Positions 49,746-50,266 of a DNA stretch of 56,529 nt are shown here, in pieces. The stretch is taken from NCBI GenBank assembly GCA_022571295.1, contig JACZYA010000003.1, forward strand, positions 1-56,529. The letters run 5' to 3'. Positions within the stretch are counted from its first letter, which is position 1. Each line of letters begins with the position of its first letter. This DNA comes from Acidobacteriota bacterium. Lineage in GTDB: Bacteria; Acidobacteriota; Terriglobia; Acidiferrales; 2-02-FULL-67-57. Both the position numbers and the translations under genes were made by a program. The notes beneath the pieces were generated by a model, which had not been told where the DNA came from, ran no database searches, and saw only the letters and a program-made list of their open reading frames with translations.

Positions 49746-49832
49746 GCGGAAGTGGCGGAACTGGTATACGCGCAGGACTTAGAATCCTGTGGCCGCAAGG
49801 CCGTGTGGGTTCGACTCCCACCTTCCGCACCA
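49746..49832 (+). tRNA. tRNA-Leu (anticodon UAG)
   Basis: An 87-nt tRNA with acceptor stem GCGGAAG/CTTCCGC, discriminator A and encoded CCA. The anticodon arm CAGGA-CTTAGAA-TCCTG gives anticodon TAG, reading CUN codons. The long variable arm (GGCC-GCAA-GGCC) is the class II feature of Leu, Ser and Tyr tRNAs. The T-arm is GTGGG-TTCGACT-CCCAC. Its last 18 nt are repeated 383 bp downstream. Confidence 0.96.
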
Positions 49833-49883
49833 AAATTTCCGTAGGAAATTTTGCCCTGAGCGAGCGCAGCGAGTCGAAGGGCC
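49815..49883 (+). repeat. direct repeat copy 1 (left end, includes tRNA 3' end)
   Basis: This 69-bp unit matches 50198-50266 at 66 of 69 bases. It comprises the last 18 nt of tRNA-Leu, a hairpin AAAATTTCC-GTA-GGAAATTTT (49832-49852) and a second palindromic module GCCCT...AGGGC (49853-49882) containing GAGCGAGCGCAGCGAG. Confidence 0.92.
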
Positions 49884-50182
49884 ATCTTCCTCCCGGTTGG
49901 TGTTGTTATCTTTTGCTTTGCGCTGATCGCAGTTACTACTGCGGAATTACCAGCAATCTTGGCCAGCGTCTTCGGGACCACGCCTCCGGCAGGGGTTCCG
50001 GCTACACCAAGGGTATCAAGCCCGTTGCATTACTCTGGTACGAATGTCACGAGGATCGCTCCTCTGCCGCCAGGCGGGAACGACAATTGAAGAAGTGGAG
50101 CCACGCCAAGAAAAAAGCGCTAGTGGAAGGATGCTTACGGTTTAAGAGTGCGAATACTCGTTTGTGGCTTTCCCTCGACTAG
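49856..50182 (+). CDS. GIY-YIG endonuclease of a tRNA-linked element
   Basis: A small protein of the UvrC-like GIY-YIG superfamily (YhbQ-like group). The fold begins at CCYLLLCADRSYYCGIT, followed by the Arg/His segment LGQRLRDHASG, the Tyr-containing GYTKG, and the Glu-bearing helix RRERQLKKW. These match the catalytic Tyr, Arg, His and Glu of the family. No ATG, GTG or TTG lies in frame at the expected start: the frame is open back through the repeat into the tRNA. The listed start is a CTG at 49856 inside the palindrome; TTG 49913 would cut the first strand. The gene fills the space between the direct repeats. Confidence 0.75.
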   Translation: MSERSESKGHLPPGWCCYLLLCADRSYYCGITSNLGQRLRDHASGRGSGYTKGIKPVALLWYECHEDRSSAARRERQLKKWSHAKKKALVEGCLRFKSANTRLWLSLD

Positions 50183-50197
50183 GCTCGGGACAAGCTC

Positions 50198-50266
50198 CTC
50201 CCACCTTCCGCACCAAAATCTCCGCAGGAGATTTTGCCCTGAGCGAGCGCAGCGAGTCGAAGGGCC
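50198..50266 (+). repeat. direct repeat copy 2 (right end, partial tRNA 3' end)
   Basis: Second copy of the 69-bp unit. It begins with the 18-nt tRNA-Leu 3' end including CCA but lacks the rest of the tRNA. The hairpin is AAAATCTCC-GCA-GGAGATTTT: two of the three differences from copy 1 are a paired T-A to C-G exchange, the third is in the loop. Confidence 0.92.

Follow-up and report, generated by a model that had tools for sequence, protein, structure and literature searches.

A GIY-YIG nuclease gene with a spare piece of tRNA gene forms a putative family of 300- to 400-bp mobile elements in bacterial tRNA genes

The DNA analyzed here (the window) is a 56,529-nucleotide (nt) stretch of an Acidobacteriota genome. 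Its plus strand carries an intact tRNA-Leu(UAG) gene at positions 49746 to 49832 (anticodon TAG and encoded CCA by ARAGORN; Rfam tRNA score, 62.3 bits), the single tRNA-Leu with a TAG anticodon seen in the window genome, G000, in which the other tRNA-Leu genes found have the anticodons CAA, TAA, CAG, and GAG. Within this gene begins a 69-bp direct repeat (positions 49815 to 49883 and 50198 to 50266), the two copies of which are 66/69 identical and start 383 bp apart. Both copies open with CTCCCACCTTCCGCACCA, which is the final 18 nt of the tRNA with its CCA, and continue into two palindromes; one GIY-YIG frame lies between them. A first-pass annotation had described this arrangement, and we confirm it. 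Two of the three differences between the copies form a compensatory pair in palindrome 1, AAATTTCC..GGAAATTT versus AAATCTCC..GGAGATTT.

The left limit of the repeat, which is also the limit in related Leu elements, defines the presumed left end of an element as the 18-nt tRNA 3' patch (49815 to 49832, plus strand). It places the break point, here called X, in the T-loop, between GGGTTCGA and CTCCC on the plus strand. Palindrome 1 (AAATTTCC-GTA-GGAAATTT, 49833 to 49852) abuts the CCA and forms an 8-bp stem when folded as single-stranded DNA; an equivalent hairpin is present in sibling Leu, Gly, and Ser elements. Palindrome 2 (GCCCTGAGCGAGCGCAGCGAGTCGAAGGGC, 49853 to 49882) is REP-like and the same in sibling elements. 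Allowing up to three mismatches, the window palindrome has only two exact-type copies in G000, both within the window element, and is not a genome-wide repeat. The nuclease frame follows at 49895 to 50182 (plus strand). Comparison with copies at G000:C183, G000:C260, G004:C63, and G049 places the right end of the element at 50160 to 50197 (plus strand), where a T-stem-like TTGTGGCTT precedes a diverged REP-like palindrome; the counterpart in those four copies is GTGTGGGTT-TCCCTCG..CTCGGGATAAAC-CTCCCACC. The right-end palindrome of the window, TCCCTCGACTAGGCTCGGGA (50171 to 50190, plus strand), is degenerate and folds poorly. Beyond it lie a displaced 18-nt copy of the tRNA 3' end (50198 to 50215, plus strand), identical to 49815 to 49832, and the start of a truncated second unit with palindromes 1' and 2' (50216 to 50266). 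At G001:C66 the equivalent of this second unit is complete and has its own GIY-YIG gene. The window therefore holds one complete unit and one truncated unit. Judged from its sequence, the window copy looks partly decayed, and it may be old because its right palindrome is degenerate.

The surrounding genes are ordinary chromosomal ones, encoding an AraC/O6-methylguanine methyltransferase, an MFS transporter, trigger factor, and ClpP. In agreement with the first-pass annotation, we found no tyrosine or serine recombinase and no transposase between the repeats, where the GIY-YIG frame is the only gene, and no recombinase or transposase in the seven neighboring open reading frames (ORFs).

The GIY-YIG frame encodes about 95 amino acids (aa), matches Pfam PF01541 with an E value of 1.5e-20, and keeps all of the conserved Y, Y, G, R, H, E, and K residues. 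There is no in-frame ATG, GTG, or TTG between the tRNA and the GIY-YIG domain; a CTG inside palindrome 2 is a possible start codon. Most ORFs of the window clade likewise have no ATG, GTG, or TTG after the tRNA, and a CTG within the palindrome is the likely start codon candidate there. The AlphaFold2 model of the window protein (pLDDT, 82) is closest among solved structures to UPF0213 (YhbQ-like) proteins and then to SLX1, a structure-specific nuclease, and these are also its closest relatives in sequence; the match to 1zg2 (UPF0213) had an E value of 7e-18 in one comparison and 1.3e-4 in another. To our knowledge, neither UPF0213 nor SLX1 nucleases are mobile genes tied to tRNA genes. Proteins of the family described below are about 85 to 100 aa long and consist of the nuclease domain alone, with no known DNA-binding domain. 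Within nuclease clades, dN/dS ranges from 0.13 to 0.27, so the nuclease is under purifying selection where it is present. No phage homing-endonuclease family (PHROG) matched the window protein, and some of its relatives gave weak matches to such families.

The window genome (3.24 Mb; 46 Rfam tRNA matches) contains nine GIY-YIG matches, one of them inside a long UvrC-like frame. Three GIY-YIG genes, including that of the window, are at class-II tRNAs that have been partially duplicated. At tRNA-Ser(GCT) (C58), the downstream copy comprises the final 20 nt of the tRNA together with the beginning of the nuclease gene; at tRNA-Ser(TGA) (C140), the copy is of the 5' part and lies upstream. Relatives lacking the GIY-YIG gene stand behind tRNA-Leu(CAA)-type sequences at C183 and C260. 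Across 61 genomes of the same order, a search with the PF01541 profile gave one to nine matches per genome. Among 92 small GIY-YIG frames with flanks, 53 have a tRNA gene within 300 bp and 46 within 100 bp; about 1% would be expected within 300 bp by chance, given 46 tRNA genes in 3.24 Mb. The first-pass annotation had proposed a search for GIY-YIG genes within 100 bp of tRNA 3' ends. Nearly all of the linked genes are on the tRNA strand, and the ORF mostly starts right after CCA. A partial copy of the same tRNA lies on the far side at 40 of the 53 loci with a score of at least 15 and at 33 with a score of at least 20, while mismatched tRNA/locus pairs gave a 99th percentile of 19 and a maximum of 21. 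Dozens of unrelated tRNA loci show this anatomy, so its occurrence in the window is not due to chance.

At the level of sequence, the element is a 300- to 400-bp unit made of a GIY-YIG nuclease gene and a spare piece of tRNA gene. The start of the tRNA copy, located in either the anticodon arm or the T-loop, differs by isotype: the copy comprises the last 33 nt in Ala, Ile, and Val elements, 40 nt in Arg elements, and 15 to 20 nt in Leu and Ser elements. Directly to its left is a short palindrome: of 47 elements, 81% have a stem of 6 bp or more at the break, compared with 5.7% of control segments. In Ile elements the palindrome (TCCCGAT-AAG-ATCGGGA) replaces the anticodon arm, and in Ser elements it is inserted in the T-loop (GGTTC-hairpin-GAATC). 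Sequence of the same tRNA is often found to the left of the palindrome as well; it is obvious in Arg elements and exceeds the 95th percentile of the null in 19% of elements overall. With a palindrome at the break and tRNA sequence often on both sides of it, the far repeat is more than a simple 3' fragment, and we reject that description. Mirror-image elements (Trp, Ser, Ala-CGC, and Arg) carry the palindrome-bearing tRNA copy upstream and the intact tRNA downstream. The initial proposal that the unit targets the 3' side of tRNA genes thus holds for the tRNA as target but not for the side, since insertion occurs inside the gene, with regeneration, and in both orientations. Units can also be arrayed in tandem, as at G001:C66, which has two consecutive nuclease genes.

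Some units behind tRNA genes have no GIY-YIG gene and consist of a short spacer and a palindrome-bearing tRNA copy, resembling non-autonomous derivatives (L016 at G004:C63, L019 at G000:C183, L035 at G000:C260, L032 at G003:C33, and L291 at G070:C9).

We extended the search to about 85,000 genomes with a pattern combining a T-arm, CCA, a start codon, and a YILxS motif, which returned at least 117 stretches. At least 72 of the loci have both an ARAGORN tRNA and a GIY-YIG ORF, and these span at least 20 phyla and at least 25 anticodon types. A copy of the same tRNA is present at 35 of the 72 verified loci listed (49%) and in 2.3% of mismatched pairs. The SAR11 (Pelagibacteraceae) loci among the matches listed are all at tRNA-Glu(TTC), and no second tRNA copy was found at them. 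Many SAR11 single-cell genomes have a GIY-YIG gene directly behind tRNA-Glu(TTC) (for example, L151, L156, L165, and L169), which is striking in streamlined genomes.

Do these arrangements arise by insertion? In genus g5, a tRNA-Ala gene with no insert (G061) and an occupied one (G014) have matching flanks and differ by a clean ~304 bp. The empty allele runs from TCCACCA directly into AAATTGACG, whereas in the occupied allele about 304 bp separate the tRNA from AGATTGACG and the insert ends in a second TCCACCA. The empty site equals the tRNA plus one repeat, as the first-pass annotation had anticipated. This is the one fully flank-matched pair, and none is at the window locus: relatives carry tRNA-Leu(TAG) without the GIY-YIG gene but in different surroundings, and the comparison was therefore made at another tRNA. 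At tRNA-Ile and tRNA-Arg, the upstream flank and the tRNA are conserved without a GIY-YIG gene, and the downstream flanks differ. Genus g5 also contains further empty sites, a nuclease gene deleted down to its last codons, palindrome-only scars, and a broken nuclease gene behind tRNA-Ile. By comparison of loci and alleles, insertion, regeneration of the tRNA, recurrence at many tRNAs, and decay and loss are all documented, and the insertion and mobility of the family are well supported. The idea of a tiny mobile unit that targets tRNAs and uses a GIY-YIG nuclease is supported by the many isotypes, by the spread over at least 20 phyla, and by the empty, occupied, and decayed sites in one genus; its alternative, a non-autonomous relic, may apply to the window copy with its degenerate right-end palindrome. 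The picture is the opposite of one locus fixed across relatives, lacking empty sites and absent from other tRNAs, and we reject fixed vertical inheritance of a single locus.

The empty site bears equally on ordinary tandem duplication, in which host recombination would have doubled the tRNA and a GIY-YIG gene already resident there would lie between the copies. Direct tRNA repeats and tandem arrays are indeed present. However, the empty allele has just one tRNA between contiguous flanks, and duplication leaves unexplained the isotype-fixed breaks, the palindrome, and the presence of one nuclease family at at least 25 anticodon types. We reject this explanation on the strength of G061 and regard it as scarcely credible.

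The elements share a regenerated tRNA and a displaced fragment with integrase islands of the Islander type, which split a tRNA gene, restore it, and leave a displaced tRNA fragment at the far end (PMC4383910). This raises the question as to whether the unit is a non-autonomous mini-island, moved in trans by the tyrosine integrase of a phage or island acting on an att-like tRNA segment, with the GIY-YIG gene as cargo or accessory. Such islands characteristically leave a regenerated tRNA and a displaced fragment, with the break in the anticodon arm or T-loop (PMC4383910), and genus g5 also holds many tRNA-Ile and tRNA-Arg fragments that resemble ordinary island scars. Yet the ordinary-looking tRNA-Ile fragments start at about position 29 to 33 rather than 45, no integrase adjoins the window unit, and the elements total only 300 to 400 bp. 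Their palindrome at the break is foreign to integrase islands, their cargo is always a GIY-YIG gene of the clade that matches the tRNA, and their spread over many phyla would require many different helpers. We consider a mini-island unlikely. Phages and plasmids are rejected as current vehicles: matches there were below 60% identity, with no annotated tRNA in the two matched regions inspected, and viral contigs yielded no confirmed relative.

A tree of 161 GIY-YIG domains, in which the shortness of the proteins limits the resolution of deep branches, groups the nucleases by tRNA isotype (42 isotype changes; shuffled mean, 89; minimum, 82). The same holds within the order (15 changes versus 36 shuffled; minimum, 32). 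The window nuclease falls inside a supported tRNA-Leu clade. The match between clade and isotype need not reflect nuclease specificity and could stem from homology arms or from shared descent. Another 27 GIY-YIG genes, which have no tRNA, form a supported clade of their own; inverted REP-like palindromes flank these genes and exceed every shuffled control in 23 of the 27. In these loci (L005, L006, and L007, at G000:C95, C94, and C226, and 24 related loci of the order), the palindromes read TGTCATYCYGAGCG...AGGGATCT in inverted orientation, and the clade looks like a GIY-YIG counterpart of REP/RAYT arrangements.

The tRNA-linked elements may resemble REP/REPIN and RAYT systems, too, in that small palindromes flank a small nuclease-type gene and solo units without the GIY-YIG gene exist. 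They differ in that their enzyme has a GIY-YIG fold, the window element encoding no tyrosine HUH transposase, and in targeting a tRNA gene. One may ask, then, whether the nuclease acts as a transposase or nickase on palindromes, as in REP/RAYT, moving hairpin-ended units and hitting tRNA arms as hairpins. The frequency of palindromes at the break (81%), the tRNA-free sister clade, the inverted REP-like palindromes around the ORF in the window clade, the solo units, and the structure-specific SLX1 among the nearest relatives are consistent with this. Against it, we know of no GIY-YIG enzyme that joins DNA, tRNA clades mostly have the palindrome on one side only, and the exact, isotype-matched regeneration of the tRNA part points to homologous repair. 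We find this explanation as improbable as the mini-island.

Breaks in tRNA loops, the match between clade and isotype, and a gene adjoining the tRNA on the same strand would also suit a toxin or regulator that cleaves the tRNA itself at X, the pseudo-tRNA copy serving as a decoy or antitoxin RNA. Characterized GIY-YIG enzymes are mostly DNases, however, the break is found in the DNA of the tRNA copy, and nuclease-less units and decaying copies are common. A role of this kind is very improbable.

We think it fairly probable instead that the window unit belongs to a 300- to 400-bp, homing-endonuclease-like family living in tRNA genes and spreading by cleavage and repair copying. The GIY-YIG nuclease would break or nick its cognate tRNA gene at X, a fixed position within the anticodon arm or T-loop, and the broken gene would be repaired from an element-bearing copy, with the tRNA halves as homology arms. 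One end of the element would supply the tRNA part beyond X and the other a palindrome-marked, tRNA-derived sequence, so that insertion would regenerate a full tRNA on one side and leave a displaced, palindrome-marked tRNA remnant on the other. By carrying the severed part, the element would let the tRNA gene survive. Since its homology arms would be tRNA sequence, cognate tRNA genes in any genome could take it up regardless of their flanks. We infer a nuclease break followed by repair because there is no recombinase, the nuclease is the sole gene, and SegB provides a precedent. The palindrome might mark the end of the element, serve as a binding site, or confer immunity.

T-even phages encode SegB, a free-standing GIY-YIG homing endonuclease whose cleavage sites lie within tRNA genes, at the motif RAWTSGAAC (PMC13096335); this motif reads as a reverse-complemented T-loop. 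The segB gene sits beside tRNAs, and SegB can drive tandem tRNA-segB arrays in which the tRNA region is copied by homologous recombination (PMC13096335; PMC2988022). A GIY-YIG nuclease gene beside tRNA genes is common to both systems, but SegB is a phage gene, whereas the elements here sit in bacterial chromosomes and encode 85 to 100 aa of nuclease domain only. The accounts of SegB in these two sources, as far as they extend, do not mention the regenerated tRNA, displaced fragment, and break palindrome seen here (PMC13096335; PMC2988022). As with homing endonuclease genes, a conserved host site of these elements exists in both occupied and empty form (G014 versus G061). SegB family proteins are about 220 aa and combine a nuclease with a DNA-binding part; at about 95 aa and with no PHROG match, the window protein is not assigned to them. 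Nor is the unit a group I intron with an endonuclease, as the window tRNA is uninterrupted and Rfam finds only tRNA in six other occupied loci.

Several points weigh against homing. The protein is a nuclease domain alone, and UPF0213 and SLX1, its closest relatives of solved structure, include enzymes that are specific for structure and not for sequence. In addition, occupied G014 and empty G061 have identical tRNAs, which indicates that insertion does not obviously destroy the target site, unlike with classic homing endonuclease genes; the nuclease would be expected to cut the regenerated tRNA again. The single flank-matched pair, the limited tRNA signal to the left of the palindrome, the SAR11 loci with no second tRNA copy, and the window copy, with its missing normal start codon and degenerate right palindrome, also count against it. 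A bolder reading, which we hold only tentatively and think less likely than homing, is that of a minimal autonomous mobile class, present in at least 20 phyla, whose GIY-YIG nuclease would recognize structure and act on tRNA-gene hairpins, with tRNA pieces as homology arms and a sister clade using REP-like palindromes. If true, one nuclease family would lie behind tRNA-gene mini-insertions and many REP-like palindromes.

Parts of the elements resemble homing endonuclease genes, tRNA-targeted islands, and REP palindromes, but taken together they match none of the families that could be tested by their defining features. The first-pass annotation knew of no class with these parts, and within open-access full-text literature (subscription papers and preprints being outside that scope) we likewise found no description of this anatomy. 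The family would rank among the smallest gene-bearing mobile elements known. If our favored reading is right, a gene of fewer than 100 codons suffices for a mobile element to invade essential single-copy tRNA genes harmlessly. It would also explain many small GIY-YIG ORFs directly behind bacterial tRNA genes and many displaced tRNA fragments, and offer a compact, testable tRNA-directed insertion system with one isotype per nuclease clade.

L002 (G000:C61:372-785), with no tRNA nearby, has a degraded and then an intact GIY-YIG piece in tandem. At L088 (G005:C54), a tRNA-Leu(TAG) element has a far fragment, CTCCAGCACCA, that matches the tRNA-Leu(CAA) type instead, a sequence match that suggests a switch between Leu isoacceptors. 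Finally, many tRNA-Ile and tRNA-Arg 3' fragments are strung along single contigs (G032:C37, G039:C515, and G026:C75) and probably represent nested ordinary genomic islands.
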